NCBI GenBank assembly: GCA_900469345.1
Contig: UBWZ01000007.1
Span: 1-64,000 of the forward strand
Direction: 5' to 3'
Length of the DNA: 64,000 nucleotides
Source of the DNA: Hyphomicrobiales bacterium
GTDB taxonomy: Bacteria > Pseudomonadota > Alphaproteobacteria > Rhizobiales > Rhizobiaceae
The first letter of the stretch is position 1. The number at the start of each line of letters is the position of its first letter. This document shows positions 10,739 through 32,915 of the stretch, piece after piece. Position numbers and translations under genes: made by a program. The notes under the pieces are model-generated. The model was given only the letters and a program-made list of their open reading frames with translations, made no database searches and was not told the DNA's origin.

Positions 10739-11043
10739 CGAAGCCGGTCCAGCGGCTCGTTGGCCTATTTCCGCGTCCCGGCGCAGGTTGAACGGCGCGT
10801 ATTCGCCTCTCTGCGAGGTCGCCCAAGTCGTCCTGACGAAGCCCTTCGAGATGAAGGCGCACACGGCTCCGCGCAGACAACAGGTCCGGTTGTCGACCGC
10901 TCCACCTGTGCCTCCAGGGGTTGAAGGCCAAAGAAATCTATTTCTCATCAAAAAATTTTCGATTGGACAGCGCGGCCTAACGAAGCTCGACTGCTGTGAA
11001 CAAGTCCAAGCTGCATGTTCCGTTCAACAGTTTCGAGGCACCT
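10739..11043. other. Intergenic region with the leader of the peptide-type importer
   Basis: About 300 bases with no convincing gene; short open frames here lack ribosome sites. The right part holds the AT-rich element described at 10931-10968, which should be the promoter/operator of the importer operon. Nothing recognisable between 10739 and 10930. Confidence 0.5.
10931..10968 (+). promoter_or_regulatory. Putative LysR-type operator, copy A
   Basis: Contains AAATTTTCGATTGGAC at 10953-10968, nearly identical to AAATTTCGATTGGAC at 19555-19569. It also contains AAGAAATCTA at 10931-10940, identical to 18307-18316 in the divergent LysR promoter. An AT-rich element in an otherwise GC-rich region, shared by three promoters around one LysR gene, is probably that regulator's binding site. 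It ends 75 bases before the preferred start of the importer operon. Confidence 0.6.
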
Positions 11044-12594
11044 GTGACACCTTCCCACCTTCCGGATTTCAATGCGACGAGACGAACCGTTCTGATCAGC
11101 CTCAGCGCCGGCGTGGTCGCGCTTGCCATGCCGCAGGGCACGCTTGCGCAAACCGCGGGCGGCGGCGTCCTGAAATTCGGCCTGTCGACTTTCCCGCCTA
11201 CCCTCAAGCCTTTCGACAATACCGGCGGAGCGGCCAACACAGTCAAGCTGATGCTGTATCGCGGGCTGATGGGCTACGACGCAACCGGCAAGCTTGTGAA
11301 CGAAATCGCCGAAAGTGTGGCCTGGAGCAATCCGACCACCGCCGTCTTCAAGCTGCGGCCCAACGCCGTGTTCCATGACGGAAGCCCGGTCACCGCGGCC
11401 GACGTCGTCTTCTCGCTCAACGAAATCACCAAGCAGGGCTCGTCCGCCTACCTTAAGAGCGACCTGAAGATCATCAGCGCCGTCGAGGCGGTGGACGACA
11501 AGACCGTTCAGATTACGCTGAAAGCGCCGAGCGCCATCTTCCTCGATCTGCTGGCCAGCTATTGCTGCCCCGTCATCTCGGCAAAGAGCACCGACAGCGA
11601 TGTCATCGGTGCCGGCCCCTTTACACTGAAAGGGAGCGAGAAAGGCGTCTTTATCGAATTAGCACGTTTCAAGGACTACTATCTGTCGGATCAGCCGCAT
11701 GTCGACGGTATCCGCTTCATCGCCTATGCGGACGAGAACCTTCGCTACGCAGCCCTTGCGGCCGGCGACGTCGACCTCATCGAGTACCTGCCCTGGACGC
11801 AGTTCGACGCGGTCGAAGCCTCCAAGACGCTGAAGATGAAGACCACGCTTGGGCCCTTCATGTTCCTGCTGTTCAACGTCACCGATGGCCCCTTCGCCAA
11901 TGCAAAGGTGCGCCAGGCCGTCGGTTATGCGATTGAGCGCCAGGATGTCGTCGATGCTGCCTTTGCGGGACGGGGCGTTCCGCTTTACGGCCTTCCCAAC
12001 CCCAAGGGATCGCCCTTCGATCTCTCCGACCCCGCCCATGAATGGAAATACGACGTCGACAAGGCCAAGGCGCTGCTCGCCGAGGCCGGCTATCCGAACG
12101 GCTTCGAATGCCGCCTGCTGGCAACTGCCACCTACGGTATGCACCAGGACACGGCCTCCGTGGTCCAGGCCTATCTCGCCGCGATCGGCATCAACGCCAC
12201 GCTGGACCTCCCCGACTGGGGTACGCGCGTCACGGCCGGCAAGGAAGGCAAGTACAATATCGCTGTTCATGGCACGTCGGGAAATTACAACGACCCCGAC
12301 GCGCTCTGGTCGCTGCTCTATTCCGGCAACCCCTCCTATCTGCAGTCCTTCGGCTTCAAGAGCGCGCGGATCGACGGGCTCTTGGAACAGGGTCGCAACG
12401 AGGTCGATCCGGAGAAGCGCAAGACCATCTACCAGCAGCTGGTCGTCGCCTATTACGAGGAAGTGCCGCAGGTGCCGCTGAACTGGCGGATCCAGGCCTA
12501 TGCGATGAAGCAATCCGTCGAAGGTTTTGAACAGCTCCCGGGCTTCCTCAGCGGGTCATCAGCCTACGCGCTCGACGAGACGAAACTCGGATAA
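11044..12594 (+). CDS. ABC transporter substrate-binding protein, family 5 (peptide/nickel type)
   Basis: 516 residues from GTG 11044, preferred because GAGG lies 5 bases upstream and this leaves a normal leader after the operator; GTG 10996 (532 residues) is the other candidate. The N-terminus has a twin-arginine-like signal (ATRRTVLISLSAG, cleavage near TLAQ). The mature protein has the SBP family 5 pattern: PNAVFHDGSPVTAADVVFSL, FNVTDGPFANAKVRQAVGYAI and DVDKAKALLAEAGYPNG. It would bind the substrate in the periplasm and deliver it to the permeases that follow directly. The Cys pair in LASYCCPVIS is uncommon. Confidence 0.9.
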   Translation: MTPSHLPDFNATRRTVLISLSAGVVALAMPQGTLAQTAGGGVLKFGLSTFPPTLKPFDNTGGAANTVKLMLYRGLMGYDATGKLVNEIAESVAWSNPTTAVFKLRPNAVFHDGSPVTAADVVFSLNEITKQGSSAYLKSDLKIISAVEAVDDKTVQITLKAPSAIFLDLLASYCCPVISAKSTDSDVIGAGPFTLKGSEKGVFIELARFKDYYLSDQPHVDGIRFIAYADENLRYAALAAGDVDLIEYLPWTQFDAVEASKTLKMKTTLGPFMFLLFNVTDGPFANAKVRQAVGYAIERQDVVDAAFAGRGVPLYGLPNPKGSPFDLSDPAHEWKYDVDKAKALLAEAGYPNGFECRLLATATYGMHQDTASVVQAYLAAIGINATLDLPDWGTRVTAGKEGKYNIAVHGTSGNYNDPDALWSLLYSGNPSYLQSFGFKSARIDGLLEQGRNEVDPEKRKTIYQQLVVAYYEEVPQVPLNWRIQAYAMKQSVEGFEQLPGFLSGSSAYALDETKLG

Positions 12595-12606
12595 GGGGCA
12601 GGCTGG

Positions 12607-13560
12607 ATGCTGGCTTTCATTTCCCGTCGCCTGGCAACGGCTGTTGTCATGCTGCTGGTCATCGGTACGATCATCTTCTCGCTGCTGATCATCGTACCGG
12701 GCGACCCGGCAGAGCTGCTGCTGTCGACCGGCGGCGGCTCGGCGACACCGGAAGCCATTGCAAACCTGCGCTCCACCATGGGCCTCGACAAGCCTGTCCT
12801 CGTTCAGTACGCGACCTTTCTCTACGACACAGCACGGCTGGATTTCGGAACCTCGATCGTGGACAGCGGGTCGATTTCGTCGGCGATCGCCCTGCGCCTG
12901 CCGCGCACGCTGGAGATCATCGTCGTCGGTGCGATTTTGGCGCTTGCGGTCGCCATCCCGACCGGTACCGCTGCAGGGCTGCGGGCGGGCGGGCGCTTCG
13001 ATATTGCTGCCTCCGCCGTCAACGCCCTTCTGACCTCCGTGCCCGGCTTCGTCGTCGGCACCCTGTTCATCTATTTCTTTGCTCAGGTCCTGGGCTGGCT
13101 CCCGGCCGGCGGCTATGTGGCGTTTGCGGCCAATCCTGCGCAGCATTTGCAAATGCTGATCCTCCCTTCCGTGACCGTCGGCCTGCATCTTGCCACCATC
13201 GTCTTTCGCATGACGCGCGCCAGCGTTCTGGAAATGCGCGGTCACGATTGGGTGCGCACCGCCGTCGCCAAGGGCCTCCGCCGCAAACGGGTGGTCCGCC
13301 GCCATATTCTGCACAATGCGCTTGGGCCGATCATCACGGTGGTCGGGCTGCAGCTCGGCATCCTTCTCGGATCGACCGTTCTCGTCGAGTTCGTCTACAA
13401 TTGGCCGGGACTGAGCGGTCTCCTGGTCTCGGCCGTCGAACAGCGGGACTACCCGACGGTGCGAGCCGTCATCCTCACCGTCGCCGCGATCTTCATCGCC
13501 ATCAACACGGTGATCGATATCCTGTCCTCGCTGCTCGATCCGAGGATACGCCTGCAATGA
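12607..13560 (+). CDS. ABC transporter permease, DppB/OppB type
   Basis: 317 residues. The start MLAFISRRLATAVVMLLVIGTI is the first membrane helix of DppB-like permeases, followed by the family's N-terminal periplasmic region (PGDPAELLL, MGLDKPVLVQY). The later EAA-type loop RASVLEMRGHDWVRTAVAKG is the coupling helix that contacts the ATPase. The C-terminus [14 protein letters not shown] is also typical. It starts 12 bases after the binding-protein gene and overlaps the next gene by ATGA. Confidence 0.92.
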   Translation: MLAFISRRLATAVVMLLVIGTIIFSLLIIVPGDPAELLLSTGGGSATPEAIANLRSTMGLDKPVLVQYATFLYDTARLDFGTSIVDSGSISSAIALRLPRTLEIIVVGAILALAVAIPTGTAAGLRAGGRFDIAASAVNALLTSVPGFVVGTLFIYFFAQVLGWLPAGGYVAFAANPAQHLQMLILPSVTVGLHLATIVFRMTRASVLEMRGHDWVRTAVAKGLRRKRVVRRHILHNALGPIITVVGLQLGILLGSTVLVEFVYNWPGLSGLLVSAVEQRDYPTVRAVILTVAAIFIAINTVIDILSSLLDPRIRLQ

Positions 13561-15482
13561 TGTCGATGCCTCGCATTCCTACGCGCATGATCGTCCCGAG
13601 CCTCTTGCTTGCGGCACTGATCGTCATCCCCTTTGCCGCGCCGCTGATCACCGCTGAAGATCCGATCAAGATGGCGGTCCGCTACAGGCTCGCCGCTCCA
13701 GACCTTGCTCATTGGCTGGGCCGCGACGAGTTCGGTCGCGACCGGCTGGCGCGGGTGCTCTACGGCGGGCAGGTTTCGCTGACGGTCGCCTTTGTCGCCA
13801 CCAGCATCGCCTGCATCGTTGGAACATTCTTCGGGCTGATCGGCGCCTATTTCCGCGGTCCGTCGGAGTTCATCACCACCCGGCTGTCCGATATCGTCCT
13901 CTGTTTCCCACCCATCCTTCTGGCACTGCTGGTCGTCACCCTGTTCGGTCCGGGCGCCGGCACCCTCGTGGCGGTGCTGTCGGTCCTCTACTTTCCGACA
14001 TTTGCCCGCATCGCCTTTTCCGAAGCCCTGCGCGTTACGTCACTCGATTTCGTCGAAGCGTCGCGCGCACTCGGCACACCGTCACGCCGCATCGTTCTCG
14101 GGACCATCCTGCCGAACATTGCGGGCCCCCTGTCGGTCCAGTACTCGCTGACGGCCGCCGCCGCGATCACCATCGAGAGCGGCCTGTCGTTTCTCGGCCT
14201 TGGCGTCGTGCCACCGGCACCGTCCTGGGGACAGATGATCCGCGGTGCGCGCCAGTTCATGAACCAGGATCCCCTCGGCATCCTGATCCCTTGCGCCGCG
14301 CTGGTGCTGACGATCTACGCGATCAACTTCTTCTGCGACCGGCTGCGCGATACCCTGGATCCGAAGGGCGGCGCCGGCAGCGGGATGGACGATGTCTCGG
14401 CGCCGCTGGCGCTCGCAAACGCACCCGCGATCGACGATCCGGATGTGGTCGCCATGATCACCGACCTGCGGCTCGAGACCTCGCGCTACGGTACACCGGT
14501 CGCCGTCATCGAAGAGGTGTCGCTGACGCTGCGCGCCAACCAATGCACGGCGCTTGTCGGCGAAAGCGGGTCGGGAAAGTCGCTTTCGTCTCTCGCCCTG
14601 ATGGGGCTGCTGCCCGGGGCGATCCGCCAGGCGTCGGGAACGCTGCAGCTGCGGCGCAAGAGCGGCGATGTCGTCGACCTCGGCTTCCTCGATGCCCGCA
14701 CCCTCGAAGATATTCGCGGCAACGACATTGCCATGATCTTCCAGGAGCCGATGACCTCGCTCAACCCGATCCACACGATCAGCGGCCAGATGATCGAAGC
14801 GATCCTGGCGCACCGCCCGATGTCGAAAACCGAAGCGCGCAGCCATGCGATTGCGTTACTAAAGCGGGTCGGGATGAATGATGCCGAGCGGCGGATAGAC
14901 AGCTACCCGGACCAGATGTCCGGGGGCATGCGGCAGCGCGTGATGATCGCCATGGCATTCGCCTGCGAACCGCGCCTGCTGATCGCCGACGAGCCGACCA
15001 CCGCGCTCGACGTGACGATCCAGGCCGAGATCATCGAACTGCTGCAGAGCCTGAGACAGGATCAGGCAAGCGGGCTCAGCCTGCTGTTCGTCAGTCACAA
15101 TCTTGGAATCGTCGCCGACATCGCAGACCGCGTGGCCGTGATGTATTCCGGCCAGATCGTCGAGGAAGGCCTCGCCGATCTGATCCTGCGCGATCCGCAT
15201 CATCCCTACACGCGGGCGCTGATCGAGAGCATGCCGTCCTCACATGAAGCGCTCCATTCCACCGGTGGTGACCGGCTGCCGGCGATCTCCGGCACGCCGC
15301 CGCTGCCCTCGGCGCGCCCCTCCGGCTGCGCGTTTCGTGACCGCTGTCCGATCGCCATTGCCAGCTGTGCAGAAATCCGCCCGCAACTCTATCCCAGCCC
15401 GGACGGAGAGCGCTCGGTCCGGTGCCTGCGCGCACCCGAGGCTCCGGGCGGTCTGCAAATGTCCCGAACGGAGGCAGCATGA
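13557..15482 (+). CDS. Fused ABC permease (DppC type) and ATPase (DppD type)
   Basis: 641 residues from ATG 13557 (ATGA overlap with the upstream permease). Residues 1-270 are a DppC-like permease ([17 protein letters not shown], coupling loop [18 protein letters not shown]). Residues 300-641 are an ATPase with Walker [10 protein letters not shown]-loop QEPMTSLNP, signature MSGGMRQRV, Walker [13 protein letters not shown], and the peptide-type C-terminal cysteine motif ([14 protein letters not shown]), which in this family can hold an Fe-S cluster. Permease-ATPase fusions of this class are known. The partner ATPase is the next gene, giving a complete importer with a binding protein, two permease domains and two ATPase domains. 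Confidence 0.92.
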
Positions 15483-16447
15483 CCCAGGCTCCCCTTCTCG
15501 ACGTGCAGAAGCTCCGGAAAAGCTACCCGATCGGGCGCCGTGGACTGTTTTCGCGCCGCACCCTCAACGTCCTGCACGATGTCAGTTTCAGTGTCGCGCC
15601 CGGCGAGGTGCTGGGTCTCGTTGGAGAAAGCGGTTCGGGCAAGAGCACGATCGGCCGCGCCATATTGCGCCTGATCGAGTCCGAAAGTGCTGCGATGCGC
15701 TTCAAGGGACAGGATCTGAACACCATCCCGTCCGGCCGGCTGCGCGACTTGCGCAAGGACATGCAGATCATCTTCCAGGATCCCTATGCGAGCCTCGATC
15801 CACGCAAGACCATCCGCGCGGTGCTGTCGGAAGCACTCGATGCCCATGGCCTGCACAGGGGGCCTGCCCGAGGCCCCCGGCTGACCGAGCTCGTGAACCT
15901 CGTCGGGCTCGATCCGAGCTTTCTCGACCGTCGACCGCACGAATTCTCCGGCGGGCAGCGGCAGCGCATCGGCATCGCTCGGGCGCTCGCCGTCGAGCCG
16001 AGCTTCATCGTCTGTGACGAGGCGGTATCGGCGCTCGATGTTTCCATCCAGGCACAGGTGCTCAACCTCCTGGCGGATCTGCGCGCCATGACCGGCGTGT
16101 CGCTGCTCTTTATCAGCCACGACCTGTCGGTCGTGCGCTTTATCTCGGATCGCGTGATGGTCCTTTATCTCGGCCGGGTGATGGAGGTTGGGCCGGCCGA
16201 CCAGGTGCATTTTGCGCCCAAGCATCCCTATACCGCGGCGCTGGTGTCGGCCGAACCGAGCCTGCACCGCGAAAACCGTCGCATTCGACTGACCGGCGAG
16301 ATCCCCTCGCCGCTCTCGTTGCCCTCCGGCTGCATCTTCCGCAACCGCTGTCCCTATGCCTTGCCCGCCTGTGCCGACACCGTACCGCAACTGCAGACAG
16401 TGGGCGATCAGCACCAGGCGGCCTGCCTCCGACATGACATTCTGTAA
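15479..16447 (+). CDS. ABC transporter ATP-binding protein, DppF/OppF type
   Basis: 322 residues from ATG 15479, with GGAGG 5 bases upstream and an ATGA overlap with the previous stop. Walker [11 protein letters not shown]-loop FQDPYASLDPR, signature FSGGQRQRIGIARAL and Walker B FIVCDEAVSALD are all present, as is the C-terminal OppF-type cysteine cluster (CIFRNRCPYALPAC). Second ATPase of the importer. Confidence 0.93.
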   Translation: MTQAPLLDVQKLRKSYPIGRRGLFSRRTLNVLHDVSFSVAPGEVLGLVGESGSGKSTIGRAILRLIESESAAMRFKGQDLNTIPSGRLRDLRKDMQIIFQDPYASLDPRKTIRAVLSEALDAHGLHRGPARGPRLTELVNLVGLDPSFLDRRPHEFSGGQRQRIGIARALAVEPSFIVCDEAVSALDVSIQAQVLNLLADLRAMTGVSLLFISHDLSVVRFISDRVMVLYLGRVMEVGPADQVHFAPKHPYTAALVSAEPSLHRENRRIRLTGEIPSPLSLPSGCIFRNRCPYALPACADTVPQLQTVGDQHQAACLRHDIL

Positions 16448-16457
16448 GGATTTCCCC

Positions 16458-17270
16458 ATGCTGACTGAAAAGATCAAGATCGCCGAACTGACCAGCGAAG
16501 AAGCGCGGCAGTTCCTCAACGACGACGCCGTCATCCTCCTGCCGATGGGCTCGCTGGAAGACCAGGGCACGCACGCGCCGATGGGTGATTATCTCGCCGC
16601 GGAAGCCGTGGCGCTCGACATTGCCCGCGCCGCGCGCGCCGAGGGCATACCGACCTTTATCGCGCCAGTCATTCCGTTTGGCGGCGCCGACTACTTCGGG
16701 TCGTCGCATGGCGGCATCGCCTTGAGCCAGTCGACGCTCGTCGCTGTGCTCGATGATATGTTCGCCTGCCTTGCCCGCCACGGGCTGACCAAGGTATTGG
16801 TCATCAACGGCCATGGCGGCAATGTCGGCGCCATCAACGACGTCTCGCTGAAATGGCGCCAGACCAACGGCATGTTCGTCGCGTCGATGTATCTTTGGCA
16901 GATCAGCTACGAATTGCTGAAGGAGATCCTTGGCGCAGATGCCGCGGCCAAGTCCTCCGGTCACGGCGGCGATCCGCTGACATCGGTGGGCCTGCACTAC
17001 TACCCCGAGATCCTGCGCATGGATCTGGCAAAGGCACCGCCGAAGGGCCAGAAGGCGATGGGCGTCGACGTTGCGGGGTTTGCGGCGCTGAAATATGCAG
17101 GCGCCCGTCTGCAGGCGCCGATCGAGGCCATGGAAACGGCACCGCATGGCGTCTGGGGCGGCGACCCCGTTTTCTGCTCGGCTGAAACGGGAGCTGCCCT
17201 TACCGAGCGTCTGGTCAAGATCGGGGCCGGCTTCATCCGGGACCACGTGTCCCGGCGCTTTGCCGCCTGA
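16458..17270 (+). CDS. Creatininase-family amidohydrolase
   Basis: 270 residues from ATG 16458, with AAGGA 8 bases upstream; 10 bases after the ATPase gene. The metal-site motifs of the creatininase family are present: LPMGSLEDQGTHAPMGDYLAAE (Glu, His and Asp ligands), FGGADYFGSSHGGIALS, and VLVINGHGGNVGAIND. Family members are cytoplasmic Zn/Mn enzymes that open cyclic amides or cut amide bonds (creatinine, formamidopyrimidine and mycofactocin precursors). As the last gene of an ABC importer operon it probably hydrolyses the imported compound. The family is broad; creatinine itself is not implied. Confidence 0.85.
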   Translation: MLTEKIKIAELTSEEARQFLNDDAVILLPMGSLEDQGTHAPMGDYLAAEAVALDIARAARAEGIPTFIAPVIPFGGADYFGSSHGGIALSQSTLVAVLDDMFACLARHGLTKVLVINGHGGNVGAINDVSLKWRQTNGMFVASMYLWQISYELLKEILGADAAAKSSGHGGDPLTSVGLHYYPEILRMDLAKAPPKGQKAMGVDVAGFAALKYAGARLQAPIEAMETAPHGVWGGDPVFCSAETGAALTERLVKIGAGFIRDHVSRRFAA

Positions 17271-17364
17271 GAGATCGTCATCCGGACCGTGGCGTAAGCG
17301 GGTGCCGTACGCACCGACTGCGCCGCGACCGGCCACGAGCGCCGGGCGGCTGGACCGGCCTCGA

Positions 17365-18282
17365 TCAGGTAGCGCGAAACGTCACGTAACGCGGATGCGC
17401 CGCCGCCCATTCTTCCGCGGCTTGCCGGGCGAGCTGGAATATCTCCTCGGTCTGCGCCTTGCGGGCCCGGTTCTGATGAACGCAGCGAATGTCGAGCGGC
17501 GCCAGCTGGACGGTGGTAGGGATCTCCACCAGCATTCCGGTCGCGATCTCATGCTCCAGCGAGGCGAGCGGCATTGCCGAAGCGCCATAGCCGGCCCTGA
17601 CCATCTCGCAGATGGTGGCCAGCGAATTGCCTGTGTGCCGCGAGTTGGGGCGCCGCCTGGTTTCCTCGATGAGTTCGGCCACAGGACCGAAAAGAGGCGA
17701 GGTATGGGGGTAGAGGACGAGTGGCAGCTCGCGCAGCTCGTCGGGCGTCAACGGCCTGGTGATCTCGCCGACAACGTCCGGGCGAGCCACCCAGCCGACA
17801 TGATAGAGCACCGAAAAGCTGTCCGGGATCTGCGGCAGACCGGCTTCCCCGGTTACGAACGCCATGTCCAGTGCACCGGATTTGACCATCGGGCGCAGAT
17901 CAAGATTGGCGCCGGAATAGAAATCGACCAGTGGCGGATCCGGCAGGCTCGCCACCTTGTGGCGCAACGCGATTGCCCAGGTCTGGGTCACCATCGATAC
18001 GACGCCGATCGTATACCGTCTTTTCTGCTTGGATTTCAGTCGGCTGGTCAGGGTTTCGCTGAGGTTGAGAAACGTTTCGGCATATTCGGCAACCTCGTGC
18101 CCCTGTTCGGTCAGGGTGAAATCGGCTTGCGCGCGATCCACGAGAGGAATGCCGAAACTCTCTTCCAAACCGGCTATTCTTGCCGAAACCGCTGGCTGCG
18201 TCAGGCCGATGTGATCGGCGACGCGTTGGTAGCTTTTAAGACGGGTCAGCCAGTAGAAGGCTTCCAACTGTTTGAAATTCAT
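17365..18282 (-). CDS. LysR-type transcriptional regulator of the two-importer block
   Basis: 305 residues from the ATG at 18280-18282; an upstream TTG at 18288 is less likely. The N-terminal winged helix is clear: FKQLEAFYWLTRLKSYQRVADHIGLTQPAVSARIAGLEESFG. The rest is a LysR effector domain. It is transcribed away from the GhrA-like gene, with a 140-base shared promoter region holding a motif that recurs before both ABC importers. It is therefore probably the local regulator and sensor of the block's substrate or an intermediate. Confidence 0.9.
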   Translation of the reverse strand: MNFKQLEAFYWLTRLKSYQRVADHIGLTQPAVSARIAGLEESFGIPLVDRAQADFTLTEQGHEVAEYAETFLNLSETLTSRLKSKQKRRYTIGVVSMVTQTWAIALRHKVASLPDPPLVDFYSGANLDLRPMVKSGALDMAFVTGEAGLPQIPDSFSVLYHVGWVARPDVVGEITRPLTPDELRELPLVLYPHTSPLFGPVAELIEETRRRPNSRHTGNSLATICEMVRAGYGASAMPLASLEHEIATGMLVEIPTTVQLAPLDIRCVHQNRARKAQTEEIFQLARQAAEEWAAAHPRYVTFRAT

Positions 18283-18306
18283 GGCCAAAGCCTAGAGCAA
18301 TGCGGC

Positions 18307-18351
18307 AAGAAATCTACATAAAAATTCTCTATCGGCGCCACAGGAATTTTT
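18307..18351. promoter_or_regulatory. Divergent promoter/operator of LysR and GhrA-like genes, copy B
   Basis: Holds AAGAAATCTA (18307-18316, identical to 10931-10940) and AAATTCTCTATCGGCGC (18322-18338), which aligns with the AAATTTTCGATTGGAC elements. Also contains an 8-bp inverted repeat, AAAAATTC at 18320-18327 and GAATTTTT at 18344-18351. Its place between a LysR gene and a divergent target is the classic site for LysR autoregulation. Confidence 0.65.
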
Positions 18352-18424
18352 GCTTTGACCTTTAAGCCCAGCCTGCGGTGAATGGACGCCAGATTAGAAT
18401 AGAAGAGCCAGTTGAGGAAGCTCC

Positions 18425-19357
18425 ATGAACATTGCCGTGTCACTGCCAGCCGAAGACAAGACCGAGTGGTGGTGTAAGATGCTGCGAGATCTGATGCCGG
18501 ATTGGAATATCTACCCGATCGGCAAGGTGCCGGATCCGGATGCCGTGACGTATACGGTGGTCTGGCGCCCGGCGACCGGGGCGATGACGCCGTTTCGAAA
18601 CCTGAAGGCGATCGTGTCGCTTGGGGCAGGCATCGACCATGTGCTGGCCGACAAGCAACTGCCACTGGACGTTCCGATCATCCGCACGGTCGGCACCGAT
18701 CTGACGCAGCGGATGAAGGAATACGTCGCCCTTCACGTGCTGCGGCACCATCGCGAGCTGCCCGCCATGCAGGCCAACCAGATGCGCCAGGTCTGGGATC
18801 AGATCGTCGTACCGCCGGCCACCCAACGCCGCGTCGGGGTGATGGGGCTTGGAAATCTGGGTGCCGTCGCCGCCGATCTCCTTGTGCAGATAGGCTTCCA
18901 GGTGAACGGCTGGTCGCGATCTGCGAAGGACCTGCCGGGCATACAATGTTTTTCCGGCACCGAAGGATTCGGGGCCTTTCTGGAGGGGACCGAGATCCTC
19001 GTCTGCCTTCTGCCGCTCACCGAAAGTACCCGCGGCATTCTCAACGCGGACACGTTCAACCGTCTGAAACGCGGAGCGAGCATCATCAATGCCGCGCGGG
19101 GCCCGCATCTGGTCGATAGCGACCTGATCGAAGCACTCAATTCCGGGCAGCTCAGCGGTGCCACGCTCGATGTATTTCACACCGAGCCACTGCCTGCCGC
19201 CCATCCGTTCTGGACCAACCCCAAGATCACCGTCACGCCGCACGTCGCCTCGATGATAGACGCGCCGACAGGTAGCAAGATCGTGGCAAGGAACATCCGG
19301 ACCCACCACGAGACCGGAACGGTCGAAGATCTGGCCGATGCGAAACGGGGCTATTAG
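18425..19357 (+). CDS. D-isomer 2-hydroxyacid dehydrogenase, GhrA-like (glyoxylate/hydroxypyruvate reductase)
   Basis: 310 residues, the usual GhrA length. NAD(P) motif GLGNLGAVAADLL, catalytic Arg in NAARGPHLVD, catalytic Glu in HTEPLPAAHPFW and His in VTPHVAS are in place. GhrA-like enzymes reduce glyoxylate, hydroxypyruvate or related 2-oxo acids with NADPH in the cytoplasm. Divergent from the LysR gene and followed by a strong hairpin, so it is a monocistronic target. It probably handles a 2-oxo or 2-hydroxy acid released by the imported compound. Confidence 0.88.
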   Translation: MNIAVSLPAEDKTEWWCKMLRDLMPDWNIYPIGKVPDPDAVTYTVVWRPATGAMTPFRNLKAIVSLGAGIDHVLADKQLPLDVPIIRTVGTDLTQRMKEYVALHVLRHHRELPAMQANQMRQVWDQIVVPPATQRRVGVMGLGNLGAVAADLLVQIGFQVNGWSRSAKDLPGIQCFSGTEGFGAFLEGTEILVCLLPLTESTRGILNADTFNRLKRGASIINAARGPHLVDSDLIEALNSGQLSGATLDVFHTEPLPAAHPFWTNPKITVTPHVASMIDAPTGSKIVARNIRTHHETGTVEDLADAKRGY

Positions 19358-19419
19358 CGCCAACACCACGTCTTCGGTGACCGCTCGGCGGCCGGATAGA
19401 TTTCCTTTTTGGCGTTTCT

Positions 19420-19459
19420 GCAAAGCCCTCCGGCGCATCGCTGCACCGGAGGGCTTTGC
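19420..19459 (+). terminator. Hairpin terminator after the GhrA-like gene
   Basis: A perfect 14-bp stem (GCAAAGCCCTCCGG at 19420-19433 with CCGGAGGGCTTTGC at 19446-19459) and a 12-base loop, 62 bases past the stop. The U-run is poor, but stem length and position support termination. Confidence 0.65.
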
Positions 19460-19527
19460 CATGTCAAAATGACTAAATTACAGCCACTTAGACGCTCTTC
19501 AGGCTGAAATTTGAGCAGGCTAACGCC

Positions 19528-19569
19528 CAAAATTTTCCTGATGCGACTACTAAGAAATTTCGATTGGAC
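19528..19569 (+). promoter_or_regulatory. Putative LysR-type operator, copy C
   Basis: AAGAAATTTCGATTGGAC at 19552-19569 matches copy A in 15 of 16 positions over its right part with one base missing. A second AT-rich half, CAAAATTTTCCTGAT, lies at 19528-19542. It sits 166 bases before the polyamine-type importer operon, about 1.2 kb from the LysR gene. The 19358-19734 intergenic region holds this element and the terminator; no gene was seen in it. Confidence 0.6.
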
Positions 19570-19734
19570 TTTGAAGGCTCGAGATCGTTGCATCGTCGGG
19601 CAACGGATCCGCTGAAAAGCAGCGCCCTCGGCTCGGCATTGTCCTCCAGCCGGAAAGCTTGCTCGATCCCTGCTTCACCGGGCTGCCTGACAGCCACCTC
19701 GACACTCGGGCCGCCTTCCCCGACAGGAGACATG

Positions 19735-20787
19735 ATGATGCGTAGCAAGCTTCTTTCCACCATGGTGTTCGCCGCGCTACTCGCTACCACGGCTCAGGCG
19801 CAGTCTCCCGATGTGTCGGGTGAGATCACTCTCACCGCCTATTCCGGGATCTTCCAGGACAAGTACCAGGAGGCCGTGATCAAGCCTTTCATGGCGAAAT
19901 ATCCGAAAGTAAAGGTGAGCTATTTCGCCTCCAATGCCTCGTCGGCGATGCTGGGCAATCTGCGGTCGCAGGCCGGCGACCCGCAGACGGATGTGGTGAT
20001 CTTCGACGTCTCCACCTCGCTGATCGGCGACAAGGAAGACCTGCTGGCCGAGCTTAATACCTCGGACGTTCCCAACCTCGCCGACCTCGTGCCGCAGGCG
20101 ATCGTCAAGGAAGGCTATGGCCCCGCCGTGACGTTCGACAATCTGGTCGTCATCTACAACAAGGAGGCGTTTCCGACCGCCCCCACTTCCCTTTCTGTCC
20201 TCTGGGACAAGGCCTATGCCGGAAAGATGGCCGTTACGTCGATGCCATCGATTCTTGGCTCCGGCCTGATGGTGATGACCTCGGCGATGCTCAAGGAGGA
20301 CTATACCAAATCGGTCAAGCAAGCGGCGGCCAAGCTCGCCGAAATGGCGCCCGGCGTGCAGACCTTCGACCCGAAGCCCGATGCCTATACGCTGGTCATC
20401 AACGGCACCGATGTCCTGGGCACCGGATGGAATGCGCGCAGTCAGTATTATGCCGACCAGTCCCAGGGAAAGCTTGGGGTGATGCTGCCTCAAGAGGGCA
20501 CCATTCTCCAGATCAACACGATCAACCTGGTCAAGGGCTCCAAAAACCCCGATGCCGCCAAGGCCTTCATCAACTATGCGCTTTCGCCGGAAGCACAGGC
20601 TGCCTTTACGGAGGCGATGTTCTACGCTCCGGTCAATCCAAAGGCACAGGTGAGCCCGGCCGCCGCTGCCCGCACTGTCGCGGGCCAGCTGGACAAGACA
20701 CTGCCGCTCGACTGGGCCTGGGCCGCGACCAAATCCGACGAATGGAACCAGATCTGGAAGCGCCAGATCATTTCGGCCGGCAAGTAA
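19735..20787 (+). CDS. ABC transporter substrate-binding protein, PotD/PotF-like (family 1)
   Basis: 350 residues from ATG 19735. Three in-frame ATGs (19732, 19735, 19738) follow AGGAGA; the second gives normal spacing. A Sec signal peptide ends near TTAQAQ. The mature part has family 1 features (GEITLTAYSGIFQDKYQEAVI, VVIYNKEAF, NLVKGSKNPDAAKAFINYAL). Spermidine/putrescine-type binding proteins take up polyamines, but relatives bind thiamine, iron or opine-like compounds. First gene of an operon with an ATPase and two permeases. Confidence 0.88.
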   Translation: MMRSKLLSTMVFAALLATTAQAQSPDVSGEITLTAYSGIFQDKYQEAVIKPFMAKYPKVKVSYFASNASSAMLGNLRSQAGDPQTDVVIFDVSTSLIGDKEDLLAELNTSDVPNLADLVPQAIVKEGYGPAVTFDNLVVIYNKEAFPTAPTSLSVLWDKAYAGKMAVTSMPSILGSGLMVMTSAMLKEDYTKSVKQAAAKLAEMAPGVQTFDPKPDAYTLVINGTDVLGTGWNARSQYYADQSQGKLGVMLPQEGTILQINTINLVKGSKNPDAAKAFINYALSPEAQAAFTEAMFYAPVNPKAQVSPAAAARTVAGQLDKTLPLDWAWAATKSDEWNQIWKRQIISAGK

Positions 20788-20803: not shown

Positions 20804-21895
20804 ATGACCTCTCCGGCAATGACGGCCCACATCCGCATCCGCGAGCTTACCTTCGACTATGGCGGAGACCGGCCGGCCGTGGACGCCCTGTCCTTTGACA
20901 TCGCCAAGGGTGAGTTTATCGGATTGCTGGGGCCGTCGGGCTGCGGCAAATCCACGACGCTGCGGATGTTCGCAGGCCTTCTTGCTCCGACCTCCGGGCA
21001 GATCGTCATCAACGGCGAGGATATCGTGGCGCGGCCTCCCTGGGAGCGCAATATGGGCCTGGTCTTCCAGTCCTATGCGCTCTTTCCGCACATGACGGTC
21101 GCCCAGAATGTCGCCTTCGGCCTGCGCCTTCGCAAGGTCGGCAAGGCCGAAACCGCCTCGCGGGTAGCGGAAGCGCTGCGCGCCGTTCGCCTCGACAATT
21201 TCGGCAGCCGGCGGCCAGCCGAGCTTTCCGGCGGACAGCAACAGCGGGTCGCGATCGCGCGGGCGATCGTCATCCAACCGGAAATCCTGCTGCTCGACGA
21301 GCCCTTGTCCAACCTCGATGCGAGGCTGCGCGACGAAATGCGCTTCGAGATCCGCGACATCCAGACGCGCACAGGCATTACGACGCTGTTTGTCACCCAC
21401 GACCAGCAGGAAGCCCTGACCATGTGCGACCGGATCGCCGTGATGAATGGCGGCAGGCTCGAACAGATCGGCACGCCGGTCGCCGTCTACGACCAAGCGG
21501 CGACGCCGTTTGTCGCCAATTTCATCGGGCGGGCCAACAGCGTGCCTGCGACCCTCAGCCACCTGTCCGGGGCACCGCAGCTGCGCCTGGAGGGCCAGTG
21601 GTTGCCGGCTCCGCGCGCCGAAGATCTTCCTGTCGGCGTTACCGACGGCACCAGGGTATCGGCGATGGTGCGCCCGCACGCCATCCGCCTCGCCAAGCCG
21701 GACGGCGGGTTGACGGCGCGCGTCGTCCGCCGCGTTTTCGTGGGCAGCGTCGTCGAAGTGGAGCTGCAACTGGCCGACAACCACACTTTGATCGCAGAGC
21801 TCCGCCCGGACAGTGATGGGGCTGCACTTGCCGAGCCCGGCGCCGAGGTCGCAATCAGCTGGCGGCCGACCGACATGCGGATCTTTGCCGCATGA
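20804..21895 (+). CDS. ABC transporter ATP-binding protein, PotA-like
   Basis: 363 residues. Walker [11 protein letters not shown]-loop [15 protein letters not shown], signature [14 protein letters not shown], Walker [13 protein letters not shown] and H-loop VTHDQQEA are all present. A C-terminal TOBE domain follows (about 270-363, including VRPHAIRL). Starts 16 bases after the binding protein and overlaps the next gene by ATGA. Drives the polyamine-type importer. Confidence 0.93.
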
Positions 21896-22761
21896 ACCGC
21901 TTTACCGTCCCGGGCACCAGCACGAGACTGACCCCATGGCTGCTTTTGAGCCCGGTGCTGATCGTCCTGACGATCTCCTTCATTGCGCCGATCGCCTGGC
22001 TGTTCCGCATGTCGCTGAACATTTCCGATTTCGGTGCGATCACCAAAGCCGTCAGCCTCCAGACTTATATCGGCATCCTGCAGGACAGCTACTATCTCGA
22101 TCTTCTCGGCCGAACACTGCGCCTGTCCCTAACATGCTCCGTCGTCGCACTTCTGCTCGCCTATCCGATGGCACTCACGCTTTCGCGGATGACCTCGCGC
22201 TGGCGCACGCCGTTGACGGTGCTGGCGGCATCGCCACTGCTGATTTCCGCGGTTGTGCGGTCGTTCGGCTGGATGGTGACGCTGGGTGACAGCGGCCCGG
22301 TCAACCACCTGCTGCGGACGGTCGGATTGACGTCGGAACCGCTGCACATGGTCAACAACTACACGGGTGTGATCATCGGCCTGTCGGAGGCCATCATGCC
22401 CTACATCTTTCTCACGGTTGCGGCCGGGCTCGGCAAGCTGGACAGGCGCCTCGATGACGCCGCCATGTCGCTCGGCGCAACGCCGCAGAGTGTCTTCTGG
22501 CACGTCACGCTGCCGCTCAGCCTGCCGGCCATCCTGGCTGGGTTGACGATCGGCTTCGTGCTGTGCGTGTCCTCGTTCATTACTCCTTCCCTGCTCGGCG
22601 GCGGGCGGGTGTTCCTGCTGGCGACCGAAGTCTACGACCTGGCGCTCGTCTCCCTCGACTGGCCGACGGCGGCGGCACTGTCCTTTCTCATGCTGGCCTT
22701 TTTTGTTGGCGCGATGGGGCTGGCGAGCATTGCCCTTCGGCTTTTGATGCGGAGGGCCTGA
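21892..22761 (+). CDS. ABC transporter permease, PotB-like
   Basis: 289 residues with about six hydrophobic helices. The opening [25 protein letters not shown] and the coupling loop [25 protein letters not shown] are those of PotB-type permeases. The start overlaps the ATPase stop (ATGA). Pairs with the next gene to form the membrane channel. Confidence 0.92.
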
Positions 22762-22764: not shown

Positions 22765-23556
22765 ATGACGAAACTGCTCTCCTTTATTTCCCGCACCTAC
22801 GTCATCATCGTCTTCTGCATCGTCTTCATGCCGATGGCGATCATCCTCGTCATCTCGTTCAGCGCCGACAGCTATCTTTCCTTTCCTCCATCCGGGTGGA
22901 GCCTCAAATGGTACGCGGCGGTGCTCGGCAATACGGGCTTCATGCAAGGCTTCCGCAACAGCGCCCTCATCGCGGTGATCGTCGCGGGCCTCAGCCTCGT
23001 ACTCGGCCTGCCGGCTGCCTATGCGCTCGTGCGGCTGGACTTTCCGGGCCGCACCCTGATCCGGAGCCTCGTCATCGCGCCGCTGGTATTGCCTGCCATG
23101 ATGCTCGGACTCGGGATCCTGATGGTCTTCACGCCGGCGGGCCTGGTTGCCACCTATCCCGGGCTAGTGCTGGCGCACCTCGTCATGACGCTGCCGTTCA
23201 GCATCCGGATCCTGCAGACGGCGCTCTCCAATCTCGGCACGGATGTCGACGAGGCGGCGATGACGCTTGGCGCACGCCCCTTGCAGGTGTTTGTGCAAAT
23301 TACCCTGCCAAGGCTTACACCCGGCGTGATCGCCTCAAGCGCCATCGCGCTTATCCTCTCCTTCGACGAAATCGTGCTGTCGCTGTTCATCGTCGGGCCA
23401 CGGCTACAGACCCTTCCGGTTGCACTCTACCGCTATGTCGACGAACGGACCGATCCAATGGTCGCGGTGCTGGCCGTCCTGATGATCACTCTCTCGCTTG
23501 CGATCGTGCTGATCGTCGAACGCAGCATCGGCTTTGCCAAGGCGTTTGGCCGCTGA
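22765..23556 (+). CDS. ABC transporter permease, PotC-like
   Basis: 263 residues with about six membrane helices. FMPMAIILVISFSAD near the N-terminus and the coupling loop GTDVDEAAMTLGARPLQVFVQITLP are PotC features. Begins 3 bases after PotB. Completes the importer. Confidence 0.92.
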   Translation: MTKLLSFISRTYVIIVFCIVFMPMAIILVISFSADSYLSFPPSGWSLKWYAAVLGNTGFMQGFRNSALIAVIVAGLSLVLGLPAAYALVRLDFPGRTLIRSLVIAPLVLPAMMLGLGILMVFTPAGLVATYPGLVLAHLVMTLPFSIRILQTALSNLGTDVDEAAMTLGARPLQVFVQITLPRLTPGVIASSAIALILSFDEIVLSLFIVGPRLQTLPVALYRYVDERTDPMVAVLAVLMITLSLAIVLIVERSIGFAKAFGR

Positions 23557-23584: not shown

Positions 23585-24253
23585 ATGACTTACAAAATCA
23601 ATCCGATGCCTTCCCAGATAGCCGAAAGCGACCTTGCCCTTCTGGCACAGGTCGAGACCGCGACACTCGGCCACTGGCGTCATTTCGGCTTTCTCAGCCG
23701 GCAGATCCAGCCGCTCATCCCGGGCCGAAGGGTCGTCGGCACCGCAGTCACCATTGCCATCCCCGGCCCCGATTCCACCCTGCTGCACCATCTGCTCAGC
23801 CTCATTCGCCCGGGCGACTTCGTGATCGTCGATCGATTGCATGACGACCGCTATGCGTGCTGGGGCGGTGGCGTCACCGTCGGCGCCAAAGCAGCCGGCG
23901 CGGTGGGTGCGGTGGTCGACGGCCCCTGCACCGATCTCGAAGAAATCGTCCAGTCGGATTTCCCGATGTGGTGCCGTGGCATATCGCCGATCACCACCCG
24001 GATCTACGATCTCGGCGGCGCCATCAACGTCCCGGTCTCGGTCGGCAATACCGTCGTCATGCCGGGCGATGCGGTTCTGGCGGACGAAAGCGGCGTCATC
24101 GTCCTGCCGCCCGACGAGGTCGCATCGGAGGCCCAGAAGGCGATCGATATCCAGATCCGCGGCAAGGCCCGCGAAGCGAGCGTGCGCGAAACCGGCGTCA
24201 AGCTCGGCGATCTTTCGGGCGCGAGCGCAAAAGTGCTGGCAAAACTGCTTTGA
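23585..24253 (+). CDS. RraA/4-hydroxy-4-methyl-2-oxoglutarate aldolase-like protein
   Basis: 222 residues. The RraA fold signatures are present: GTAVTIAIPGPDS, the glycine-rich stretch CWGGGVTVGAKAAGAVGAVVDGPCTDLEEI, and PGDAVLADESGVIVLP. In enzymatic members a metal-bound Asp and an Arg-Asp pair cleave 4-hydroxy-2-oxo acids to pyruvate. Here the usual GGxxRD motif reads VDGPCTDLEEI: the Asp is kept but the Arg is replaced by Cys-Thr, so activity may differ. Placed between the importer and GGT genes, it likely acts on a breakdown intermediate. Confidence 0.8.
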   Translation: MTYKINPMPSQIAESDLALLAQVETATLGHWRHFGFLSRQIQPLIPGRRVVGTAVTIAIPGPDSTLLHHLLSLIRPGDFVIVDRLHDDRYACWGGGVTVGAKAAGAVGAVVDGPCTDLEEIVQSDFPMWCRGISPITTRIYDLGGAINVPVSVGNTVVMPGDAVLADESGVIVLPPDEVASEAQKAIDIQIRGKAREASVRETGVKLGDLSGASAKVLAKLL

Positions 24254-24331: not shown

Positions 24332-26020
24332 ATGCCTCCTGCCCCCCTGCCCTTCACCTGCGAGAAATCTCCCGCCAGCGGCAAGGGCGGCATGGTGGTG
24401 ACCAACCATCCGCTCGGTTCGGCGGCCGGCTTCGAGATCCTTTCGGCGGGCGGCAACGCCGTTGATGCCGCCGTCGCCGCGCTGCTTGCACTGACCGTGG
24501 TGGAGCCGATGATGGTCGGCATCGCCGGCGGCGGGTTGGCGCACATCCGCATGGCCGGCGGCCCGCACGTGGTGATCGACGCCCTCTCCTCCGCCGCGGC
24601 GACCATGCATCCGGCGATATACGAACCGGTATCCGACGAGCCGGCCCGCGCCATGGAGGCCAAGGGACGGCGCAACATCATCGGCGCCTCTTCGGTTGCC
24701 GTGCCGGGCAACCTTGCCGGCTGGTGCGACATGCAGGCACGCTACGGCAAGCTTCCGTTCGCCGACGTCGTCGAACCGGCGATCCGGCTGGCGGCGCGCG
24801 GCTTTGCCGTCACCCACTACCTCTCTGGCGCGATCGCAGAGGCCGAGGGCGAACTGTCGAGCGACCGTGAGATCTCCCGTATCCTGATGCCGGGAGGCCA
24901 TGCGCCTTCCCCGGGAGACCGCCTGGTGATGGGCGATTACGCCGAAAGCCTGCGTCTGATCCAGCGCGAGGGGGCAGCCGCCCTGCACGACGGTGCGCTC
25001 GGCGCAGCGCTCGCAGCCCGGATGCAGACAGGGGGCGAGGATGCCGGCTGGGTGACGCAAGCGGATCTGCGCGGCTATCGCGCGATCGAGCGCCAGCCGA
25101 TCATCGGCAGCTACCGTGGCTTTGAGATCGCCGGGCCTCCGCCACCGGCATCGTCCGGCGTGCATGTCACCCAGATGCTGAACATGCTCGAAGCCTATGA
25201 CGTGGCCGGCATGGGCTTCGGCACTCCCGCTTCGCTTCATCTGCTGGCCGAGGTCATCCGCATCGCCTTTGCCGACCGGCGTGCCCATTCGGGCGATCCG
25301 GCGTTTGTCGACGTGCCGGTCGAACGGCTGACTTCGAAAGCCTATGCCGCCGAGTGCAGGGCGCAGATCCGCTCAGCTGCAAGCCCGTCTGCACCTCTTT
25401 CGGCGGGCCATGAAAGCCACGACACCACGCACATCACCGTCGCCGATCGGGACGGCAACATCGTCAGCGCCACCCATACGATCAACGGGCTGTTCGGCGC
25501 GCGACTGGCCGTACCGGGAACCGGCATCATCCCCAACAATTACATGAGCAACTTCGACCCGCATCCCGGCCGCGCTCTTTCGGTCGTGCCGGGAAAGCGC
25601 GTGCCGACATCCATGGCCCCGATGATCCTGATGAAGGACGGCGCGCCGGTGTTTGCGCTCGGCCTGCCGGGCGGCTTGCGGATCTTCCCGTCGGCCATGC
25701 AGGCGATCGTCAACCTGATCGATCACAAGATGACCCTGCAGGAGGCGGTGGAAGCGCCAAGACTATGGACGCAGGGCCAGGAGGTAGAGATCGAACAGGC
25801 CTACGCACCGCAACAGGCGGCCCTCGAGGAGCTTGGTCACGACGTGCGGGTGATGCCCCATATCGGCGGGGGCATGAATGCGATAGCCTTTGGCGAGACG
25901 ATGACGGGGGCCGCCTGCTGGCGCGCCGATGGCACCGTTGCAGCGCTCGGTGGCGGACTGGCCCGTCCGGGCGTCAGGTTCTGGCCGGACAAGGCACCGG
26001 AAAAACCATCACCGACATGA
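24332..26020 (+). CDS. Gamma-glutamyltransferase-family Ntn hydrolase
   Basis: 562 residues. The GGT pattern is clear: GGNAVDAAVAALLAL, PEM-like VVEPMMVGIAGGG, PPPPASSGVHVTQMLNMLE, and the self-cleavage site HDTTHITVADRDGNIVS with nucleophile Thr365. Family members mature into large and small subunits and move or hydrolyse gamma-glutamyl groups. There is no signal peptide (the start is MPPAPLPFTCEKSPASG), so unlike glutathione-degrading periplasmic GGT this enzyme should be cytoplasmic. That fits action on an imported gamma-glutamylated or similar amide compound. Confidence 0.87.
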   Translation: MPPAPLPFTCEKSPASGKGGMVVTNHPLGSAAGFEILSAGGNAVDAAVAALLALTVVEPMMVGIAGGGLAHIRMAGGPHVVIDALSSAAATMHPAIYEPVSDEPARAMEAKGRRNIIGASSVAVPGNLAGWCDMQARYGKLPFADVVEPAIRLAARGFAVTHYLSGAIAEAEGELSSDREISRILMPGGHAPSPGDRLVMGDYAESLRLIQREGAAALHDGALGAALAARMQTGGEDAGWVTQADLRGYRAIERQPIIGSYRGFEIAGPPPPASSGVHVTQMLNMLEAYDVAGMGFGTPASLHLLAEVIRIAFADRRAHSGDPAFVDVPVERLTSKAYAAECRAQIRSAASPSAPLSAGHESHDTTHITVADRDGNIVSATHTINGLFGARLAVPGTGIIPNNYMSNFDPHPGRALSVVPGKRVPTSMAPMILMKDGAPVFALGLPGGLRIFPSAMQAIVNLIDHKMTLQEAVEAPRLWTQGQEVEIEQAYAPQQAALEELGHDVRVMPHIGGGMNAIAFGETMTGAACWRADGTVAALGGGLARPGVRFWPDKAPEKPSPT

Positions 26021-26081: not shown

Positions 26082-26816
26082 ATGACACAACGCTATATGC
26101 TGCTGACGGGCGCCAGCCGCGGCATCGGACACGCCACGGTCAAGCTGTTCCTCGAGAAAGGCTGGCGCGTGCTGACGGTCTCCCGGCAACCCTTTTCGGA
26201 GGAGTGCCGGTGGCCCTCGGCGCGCGAAAGTCACCTCCAGGCCGACCTCGCCGATCTTTCGCAAATCGACCGGCTGGTGGCGGAGGTTCGGGAACGCCTG
26301 GATGGTGCCGCCCTCCATGCTCTCGTGAACAATGCCGGCATCTCGCCGAAGGGCCCCGATGGCGCGCGCCTTGGCGTCCTCGATTCGGACGCCCTGACCT
26401 GGACGACGGTGCTGAACGTCAACCTGGTCTCGATCGCACTCCTCGCCCGTGCCCTTTTACCTGAACTGGAGGCCGCGCAGGGATCGATCGTCAATGTCAC
26501 GTCGATTGCCGGTTCGCGGGTTCATCCCTTTGCGGGCGTCGCCTATGCGGCATCCAAGGCGGGCCTCGCCGCACTCACCCGGGAAATCGCACATGAATTC
26601 GGCTCGCACGGCGTGCGCGCCAACGCGATCGCGCCCGGCGAAATTGCGACCTCCATCCTGTCGCCGGGGACCGACCTGCTGGTCGAGACCAATGTCCCGA
26701 TGAGGAGGCTCGGCACGCCGCTCGAGGTCGCCGAAACCATCCATTTCCTGTGCAGCGAAAAATCCGCCTACATCAACGGTGCGGAAATCCACATCAACGG
26801 CGGACAGCACGTCTGA
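26082..26816 (+). CDS. Short-chain dehydrogenase/reductase (SDR)
   Basis: 244 residues. Nucleotide motif TGASRGIG, NNAGISPKG, catalytic Ser in NVTSIAGS, YAASK (Tyr and Lys) and a C-terminal INGAEIHINGGQHV make a classical SDR. It would interconvert an alcohol and a ketone with NAD(P)H in the cytoplasm. Last intact gene of the probable operon that starts with the polyamine-type binding protein; it begins 61 bases after the GGT gene. Confidence 0.88.
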   Translation: MTQRYMLLTGASRGIGHATVKLFLEKGWRVLTVSRQPFSEECRWPSARESHLQADLADLSQIDRLVAEVRERLDGAALHALVNNAGISPKGPDGARLGVLDSDALTWTTVLNVNLVSIALLARALLPELEAAQGSIVNVTSIAGSRVHPFAGVAYAASKAGLAALTREIAHEFGSHGVRANAIAPGEIATSILSPGTDLLVETNVPMRRLGTPLEVAETIHFLCSEKSAYINGAEIHINGGQHV

Positions 26817-27495: not shown

Positions 27496-27825
27496 ATGAC
27501 CGACAATCTCGTTTCATGCGCCCTTGCTCGGGGAGTGGCGATCGTGACGCTGTGCAATCCGCCCGTCAACGCGCTCTCGAATGGCCTGCGTGCGGCTTTG
27601 CTATCCACCCTGCAGGAGCTCGCAGAGAGGGATCATCTCTCGGCCATCATCCTCACCGCGACCGGTCGCGTCTTCATCGCCGGCGCCGACATTACCGAGA
27701 TGGACCTTCCGCCGGAGCGGCCGTATCACCCGTCGTCGTCCAGCTTTCCGGTTCGGCTGCGGCTTCGAGGCCATGCCCGGAGAGGATCCCTTGCCGCGTC
27801 GAGATCTGTCGTCAGATGCGAATAG
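27496..27825 (+). pseudogene. Truncated enoyl-CoA hydratase (FadB/FadJ-type N-terminus)
   Basis: ATG 27496 begins MTDNLVSCALARGVAIVTLCNPPVNALS, and the frame continues to GRVFIAGADITEMDLPPERP. That is the first part of a crotonase domain as found in bifunctional hydratase/3-hydroxyacyl-CoA dehydrogenases. Homology stops after about 78 residues. The remaining codons are out-of-frame debris, including FGCGFEAM in another frame, which recalls the oxyanion GGGxE segment. A full gene would exceed 650 residues. Its end overlaps the converging lldD-like gene by 14 bases. Confidence 0.75.
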
Positions 27826-28990: not shown

Positions 28991-29079
28991 GATTTCAGCC
29001 TTCAGCGATGACCAACTGGGCGGCGCTTCGACTTGCCTCGAAGACGGTGACCAAGGGCACCTCTCGGCGCCCTTTTCTG

Positions 29080-30588: not shown

Positions 30589-30619
30589 CGAAATAATCCG
30601 ATCAAATCAGGAAAGGTCG

Positions 30620-32037: not shown

Positions 32038-32088
32038 TGATATGCTCCTCCCACGGAACGCTATGCGGGCCCGGCACCCGCTCTGCAA

Positions 32089-32784: not shown

Positions 32785-32807
32785 TGGTTCAACCTCCCGA
32801 GAAAAGA

Positions 32808-32828
32808 ATGTTGTACCAGGTACAACAT
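32808..32828. promoter_or_regulatory. 21-bp palindromic operator, probable IclR site
   Basis: ATGTTGTACC-A-GGTACAACAT is a perfect inverted repeat around one central base, in the 131-base divergent region between the IclR and hydroxyacid dehydrogenase genes. A further half-site, AGTACAA, follows at about 32839-32845. Length and arms resemble IclR-family operators. It lies 24 bases from the IclR start, where it could autoregulate that operon. Confidence 0.8.
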
Positions 32829-32915
32829 CTTTTCATCTAGTACAATAACCGATAATGAGGATTCGTCAACCGTCGCTCACCTATCAGGCGACGCACCGAA
32901 GTTCGGGAGGGATTA

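Follow-up and report, generated by a model that had tools for sequence, protein, structure and literature searches.

A 43-bp tandem site at three promoters points to one LysR-type regulon in a Rhizobiaceae catabolic gene cluster

A catabolic gene cluster of about 13 genes, including one for a LysR-type regulator (lysR), lies in a 64,000-nucleotide stretch of DNA from Hyphomicrobiales bacterium, family Rhizobiaceae (assembly GCA_900469345.1, contig UBWZ01000007.1, positions 1 to 64,000; hereafter the window). Three promoters of this cluster, A, B and C, each carry a 43-bp tandem site in a common register, and we consider it likely that the LysR-type protein is an autoregulated activator of one catabolic regulon comprising these three promoters and about 13 genes. 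By computation we established the site, its register, its conservation, its genome-wide specificity and its co-occurrence with this LysR. A first-pass annotation of the sequence had assigned 16 kb with about 13 genes to one LysR regulon on account of a shared motif, and the conservation of cluster and sites together in 15 other loci gives that proposal computational support. The sites are as follows.

10926..10968, plus strand: site A, 43-bp tandem site before the operon for a family 5 solute-binding protein (SBP5), permease, ATPase and creatininase (orthologue alignment; profile E 8.7e-7)
18317..18359, plus strand: site B, between lysR and ghrA, with the distal dyad at 18317-18333 and the proximal half at 18340-18359 (profile E 2.2e-7)
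19527..19569, plus strand: site C, 43-bp tandem site before the operon for a second importer, RraA, a gamma-glutamyltransferase (GGT) and a short-chain dehydrogenase (SDR) (profile E 1.9e-6)

A common register at the three promoters

Sites A, B and C stand in register and each terminates at the GAC of a -35-like hexamer. Relative to this GAC, both the proximal half and the CTAT/TGAT within the distal half occupy identical columns in all three, and a gapless alignment of 29 sites picked from the 49 available has nine invariant columns (site B of locus L022 was excluded, as its inclusion would break two of the nine). Based on the orthologue alignments, the conserved parts are AAAGAAATCTAT-N4-CAT-N-AAA..TTTTCGATTGGAC in A, CATAAAAATTTTCTATG-N6-..GGAATTTTTGCTTTGAC in B and CAAAATTTTTCTGATG-N7-TAAGAAAATTCGATTGGAC in C, with A and C more alike than either is to B.

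The motif strings quoted in the first-pass annotation are all present at the positions given there, and its description of the sites as close variants holds for A and C. Site B, however, had been aligned out of register, in that its distal half had been matched to the halves of A and C next to the -35; the in-register counterpart is 18340-18359. Similarly, AAGAAATCTA is indeed identical at 10931 and 18307, but the second copy is not the conserved part of B: the string is kept at A in 14 of 15 sequences, with a one-base difference in L022, and its place at B (18307) is variable among orthologues. With one mismatch allowed AAGAAATCTA has three matches in the window versus 1.12 expected (11 of 100 shuffles reach three), a count that is unremarkable when taken alone. 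The corresponding search with AAATTTTCGATTGGAC at up to three mismatches gave two window matches, A (10953) and C (19554), compared with a shuffle mean of 0.23 (2 of 100 shuffles reach two), and site B was not among these matches.

To compare the promoters with one another we used weight matrices trained on the orthologues of a single promoter, with the window excluded, and scanned both strands of the window (127,916 positions). The model of A ranked B second and C third, that of C ranked B second and A third, and that of B ranked C second and A fourth, in register in each case. Models restricted to the distal half are relevant to a different arrangement, in which there would be two overlapping kinds of LysR site, with the strong dyad distal in B and proximal in A and with LysR acting differently by promoter. 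The distal model of B ranked the proximal element of A fourth in the window and the distal model of C ranked it third and fourth, as such an arrangement would predict, but the fixed-offset register is recovered by the full-length models and the layout relative to the -35 is the same at all three promoters, so that we regard this arrangement as improbable.

Conservation in related loci

Scanning genome contigs with the LysR protein, with confirmation by tblastn, gave 20 loci. The cluster order is retained in 15 other loci (L009-L023; LysR 77-95% identical) as far as their DNA extends, L017 and L021 being incomplete loci cut by the DNA end and the SDR gene not being at its usual position in L015 and L018-L022. 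The lysR-ghrA pair is retained in L024, L025, L026 and L027, and L028 is an unrelated weak match. Site A is kept in 14 of the 14 other loci aligned (L017 does not extend to A). Site C is kept in 14 of 15, L022 being the exception, and site B, the one in LysR's own divergent promoter region, in 18 of 19, with L026 as the exception and with GCG in place of the GAC in L022. The gene for SBP8, the solute-binding protein of the second importer, starts in L022 about 50 bp after ghrA with no terminator-like repeat seen between them, an arrangement to be expected if SBP8 is read from B. At L027 (10001-10477), the LysR of Mangrovicoccus ximenensis matches residues 2-160 only, with site B kept, and its frame seems to be broken or misassembled.

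A fourth site, D, divergent from promoter A, is present in five loci (at 17530 in L016, 19890 in L018, 18218 in L019, 20475 in L020 and 9618 in L021); outside the profile training set, it was found at E 2.0e-4 in the genome of L018. Site D precedes a gene of about 320 codons, which in L016 is followed by a gene for an FAD/Fe-S oxidase. We assume that the product of about 320 amino acids resembles 4,5-dihydroxyphthalate decarboxylase; Pfam gave only a weak phosphonate-binding match, under the cut-off. The genome of the window has a 66% homologue of this gene on contig C25, without the site and beside a divergent GntR-type frame (by eye, not searched), and for these reasons unit D was not counted as a member of the window regulon.

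Specificity in the genome, the genus and the class

The motif is not common at unrelated promoters, a possibility that the earlier annotation had raised, since pattern and profile searches of the window's own genome (4.9 Mb) give A, B and C only. The pattern ATN16TTYGMTTKGAC, built from A, B and C, has three matches there and its reversed control none. Profile R1 recovers A, B and C at E 2.2e-7 to 1.9e-6 with no fourth match up to E 10, in a search that scored 150 of 444 first-look candidates and had the window sites in its training set.

Within the genus, LysR is held by eight of 57 genomes, and all eight have exactly two matches to a degenerate pattern of the site, both at the cluster. Among the 49 LysR-less members, 46 have no match and three have one each, inside open frames; in 12 of these 49 the best E of profile R1 was 0.116. 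Across the class, 59 of 385 genomes match the pattern, of which 58 have no match to this LysR at E <= 1e-70, a background above that of the genus (3/49) that makes the pattern informative for this group alone. The extended pattern WWWTTYGATTGGAC has 39 matches in the 57 genus members, 16 at the cluster (in the eight LysR-bearing genomes) and 23 elsewhere, of which 17 fall within stop-to-stop frames 150 codons or longer and five form a different conserved promoter. Given these off-cluster matches, we did not retain the 11-mer core by itself as a specific marker. The different promoter, ATTACA..GCATGAATTGC..CATAWTTCGATTGGAC, occurs at about position 3490 in each of L033, L034, L038, L043 and L053; in L033, L038, L043 and L053 (frames of four of the five loci were read) it is flanked by a LysR-like gene, judged by eye, and a solute-binding-protein-like gene.

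The 20 genomes with a relative of LysR have 40 matches to the degenerate pattern: 37, from 16 genomes, are at A, C or D (two of these, on a contig of L017's genome, were assigned by identity to A and D of L016) and three are in the genomes of L024, L025 and L027, with none in that of L026. The three are directly upstream of a relocated creatininase homologue (62-63%) in Poseidonocella and Mangrovicoccus, whose genomes retain lysR-ghrA with site B at another place; being mutually orthologous, these sites represent one event, and two were recovered by the profile search (E 0.0033 and 0.0125). A homologue of RraA is situated a few kb from the relocated creatininase gene, with TRAP transporter genes between them in L058 (one locus read). 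On the plasmids of Roseivivax marinus and Sagittula (LysR 55% and 49%, respectively) the creatininase promoter is once more the best match in the 28.9 kb, although with weak scores (13.3 and 9.7).

Predicted promoters and proposed mechanism

The predicted core elements adjoining the sites are listed below, together with an inverted repeat after ghrA.

10964..10992, plus strand: promoter A, predicted -35 TGGACA, 17-bp spacer, weak -10 TCGACT (sequence scan)
18355..18383, plus strand: ghrA promoter, predicted -35 TTGACC, 17-bp spacer, -10 GTGAAT (sequence scan)
19565..19593, plus strand: promoter C, predicted -35 TGGACT, 17-bp spacer, -10 TTGCAT (hexamer identical in 15 of 15 sequences)
19420..19459, no strand assigned: terminator-like inverted repeat with 14-bp arms, after ghrA (by eye)

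For all three promoters the best likeness to a -10 element is at the 17-bp spacer (means of 2.6, 2.9 and 3.0 of 6 matches), and the -10 of promoter A is not conserved in every orthologue. The predicted starts are about 7 nt after 10992, 18383 and 19593, and the dyad in B has its centre at 18325, which puts it 65 bp ahead of a predicted start near 18390. As GATTGGAC overlaps the -35-like hexamer, part of the motif as originally described is probably core promoter. Similar inverted repeats were seen by eye after ghrA in orthologues; the repeat at 19420..19459 was not listed by a scan with a loop limit of 8.

From these comparisons we infer binding and activation by LysR, its autorepression and the existence of an inducer. 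LysR (17365-18282, minus strand) would directly control promoters A, B and C by contacting the tandem site, the distal half being centred some 65 bp before the predicted start and the proximal half over the -35 hexamer, and the two halves would serve as recognition and activation sites in the usual LysR-type layout. Inducer-bound LysR would then activate these promoters with their weak -10 boxes, and so switch on two ATP-binding cassette importers and the creatininase, GhrA, RraA, GGT and SDR enzymes. Since the dyad of B is 35-51 bp before the lysR start codon, lysR itself is probably autorepressed.

LysR-type promoters, as described in PMC8407307, have a recognition site near -65 and an activation site at -35/-10. 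The window resembles these systems in having a regulator with HTH_1 and LysR_substrate domains and a divergent target gene, as well as a dyad that would be centred near -65 of the predicted start with a second half-site over the predicted -35. It differs in that a T-N11-A is clear at B only and in that the targets flank lysR on both sides. RhizoBindingSites (PMC7674921) comprises motifs inferred from orthologue upstream regions in Rhizobiales for nine symbiotic species, and the motif of the window was likewise derived from orthologue upstream regions in Rhizobiales.

Evidence against a single regulon and alternative explanations

Several observations weigh against the assignment of all three promoters to this LysR, and the first of them concern the site itself. 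A general, stricter sigma-70 scan found none of the three promoters, and A and C are without a T-N11-A in the columns that match that of B (18319/18331). When the last six columns (-35) were removed, the model of A ranked B fourth with C outside the top six, and the models of B and C placed neither partner in the top six, from which it follows that much of the likeness between promoters sits in the -35-proximal half. In addition, the TTCGATTGGAC half of the window sites is also present before the other LysR-linked operon family described above (5 loci). Both of these results are what would be expected if the motif were for the most part a piece of core promoter, made up of an AT-rich stretch and the -35 hexamer downstream of it, in use at many promoters and implying no dedicated regulator. 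This explanation would also account for why, at A and C, GATTGGAC lies over a -35-like hexamer that has a 17-bp spacer, in the place where B has TTGACC. We nevertheless regard it as very improbable: the full pattern, and the profile among the candidates scored, have no other match in the 4.9-Mb genome, 46 of the 49 genus members that lack the LysR are without a match, the distal half is strongly conserved within each promoter at a fixed offset, and a homologous operon in L092 is without the site.

Most of the loci are related, so the counts of conserved sites are not independent, and the more distant relatives are less uniform. L026 has no site, the best weak profile match in its genome being at E 0.078. 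In Roseivivax and Sagittula the distal half of the creatininase-promoter match is one base nearer, and a profile search of these plasmid records did not list the matches. In L024 and L025 a peptide-importer operon 46-52% identical to operon A adjoins lysR-ghrA, L090 and L091 have such an operon too, and none of these diverged operons has a site of its own. In favour of the assignment to LysR, a plasmid of A. tumefaciens HAMBI 105 that the LysR search did not list carries an operon homologous and 61-67% identical to operon A (L092, 6607-12813), and the 24.8 kb read there contain no site (best score 6.3, elsewhere), although the chromosome was not searched for LysR. A DeoR/GlpR-type gene is upstream of the operon in L092. 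Based on the site-less peptide-importer operons of L024, L025, L090 and L091, the predicted membership of the regulon differs in the distant relatives.

The retention of B beside lysR-ghrA in L024 and L025, where the adjoining peptide-importer operon is without a site, is what would be seen if A and C belonged to another transcription factor and LysR regulated only itself and ghrA, via B. The likeness of A to C, which exceeds that of either to B, is in line with this. On the other hand, no regulator gene other than lysR was read inside the window cluster, one register is common to all three sites, and sites of the A and C types track this LysR across genomes, including the relocated creatininase promoters in genomes that keep B. 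It is thus highly unlikely, in our estimation, that a second factor governs A and C, and control of all three promoters by LysR is the explanation that we carry forward.

Gene content of the cluster and its possible substrate

The genes of the window cluster are as follows.

11044..12594, plus strand: SBP5, family 5 solute-binding protein, nearest solved relative AgaA (domain and structure comparison)
12607..13560, plus strand: Opp/Dpp-type permease B (family match)
13560..15482, plus strand: fused permease C and ATPase D (65% identity to the L092 gene annotated permease/ATP-binding protein)
15479..16447, plus strand: second Opp-type ATPase (67% identity to the L092 gene annotated oligopeptide/dipeptide ATP-binding protein)
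16458..17270, plus strand: creatininase-family amidohydrolase (domain and family matches)
17365..18282, minus strand: lysR, LysR-type regulator, HTH_1 and LysR_substrate (domain matches; ATG at 18282 conserved)
18425..19357, plus strand: GhrA-like D-2-hydroxyacid dehydrogenase (domain and family matches)
19735..20787, plus strand: SBP8, polyamine/aminoethylphosphonate-type solute-binding protein (domain and family matches)
20804..21895, plus strand: PotA-like ATPase (domain and family matches)
21892..22761, plus strand: PotB-like permease (permease domain)
22765..23556, plus strand: PotC-like permease (named by gene position; no family search made)
23585..24253, plus strand: RraA-like aldolase/decarboxylase family (domain and family matches)
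24332..26020, plus strand: GGT-family N-terminal nucleophile (Ntn) hydrolase (domain, family and structure comparison)
26082..26816, plus strand: SDR (domain and family matches)

The LysR protein has matches to both PF00126 (N-terminal HTH_1) and PF03466 (C-terminal LysR_substrate) that exceed the cut-offs, and no named curated LysR subfamily was assigned, the best 25 of 47 NCBIfam matches all being under the curated cut-offs. Judged by eye against the orthologues, a start of SBP5 at 11044 is likelier than one at 10996. The fusion of permease C with ATPase D into one gene (13560-15482) is annotated likewise in L091 and L092. Adjoining the cluster is a second catabolic stretch (27812-34643) with genes for an FMN-type 2-hydroxyacid dehydrogenase, a tripartite tricarboxylate transporter and an IclR-like regulator, along with a further D-2-hydroxyacid dehydrogenase and a further RraA-like gene (named by eye from translations). 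A dyad there, ATGTTGTACCAGGTACAACAT at 32799-32830, is situated between the IclR-like gene (32089-32784, minus strand; by eye) and a dehydrogenase-like gene at 32916, and is perhaps the operator of the IclR-like regulator.

Among solved structures SBP5 is closest to AgaA (6hlx, E 4.6e-102; next best 1.2e-51), which we take to be the protein that binds agropinic acid, a lactam opine, in Agrobacterium opine uptake. The cluster is like that uptake system in that SBP5 is nearest to AgaA and in that the Opp-type importer operon has a creatininase-family gene. It is unlike it in having a second importer, GGT, RraA and GhrA. The structure 5hft, presumably that of HpxW, an oxamate amidohydrolase of the GGT family, shares the Ntn-hydrolase superfamily with the window GGT; the latter is nearer to GGTs such as 4y23 and 2e0w (E 1.7e-88) than to 5hft (E 2.7e-19), and HpxW-like oxamate chemistry was set aside because 5hft is far below the GGTs in score. 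Relatives of the cluster add hydantoinase/oxoprolinase-family genes, while the neighbours of the HAMBI 105 operon are genes for a C-N hydrolase, FAD-dependent oxidoreductases, a sugar kinase and an aldolase. Based on the AgaA-like binding protein, the creatininase, the GGT, the oxoprolinase-family genes of relatives and the HAMBI 105 operon neighbours, our best guess is that the substrate would be a lactam, pyroglutamyl or opine-like compound.

The importers of the Opp and Pot types are present in the window and its near relatives, and TRAP genes are beside the creatininase gene in Mangrovicoccus, Roseivivax and Sagittula. We tentatively suggest, as a possibility that we rate as less likely than not, that the cluster is a portable module for the catabolism of a lactam or an opine-like compound. 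In it the creatininase-family gene would keep the LysR site when one transporter is replaced by another, and an undescribed pathway would have LysR, GhrA, creatininase and RraA at its core. This cluster was not found described in the open-licence literature, as judged by titles and the starts of abstracts.

Significance

Catabolic operons regulated by a LysR-type protein are of an ordinary, known kind, and it is the comparative record that is unusually clear here. It gives a precise and testable predicted regulon of one regulator, three 43-bp sites whose register is defined, and a core of conserved enzymes. The presence of the site before the creatininase gene even with another transporter suggests which genes form the pathway set and narrows the search for the substrate, and the regulator could be used to find that substrate through its inducer.

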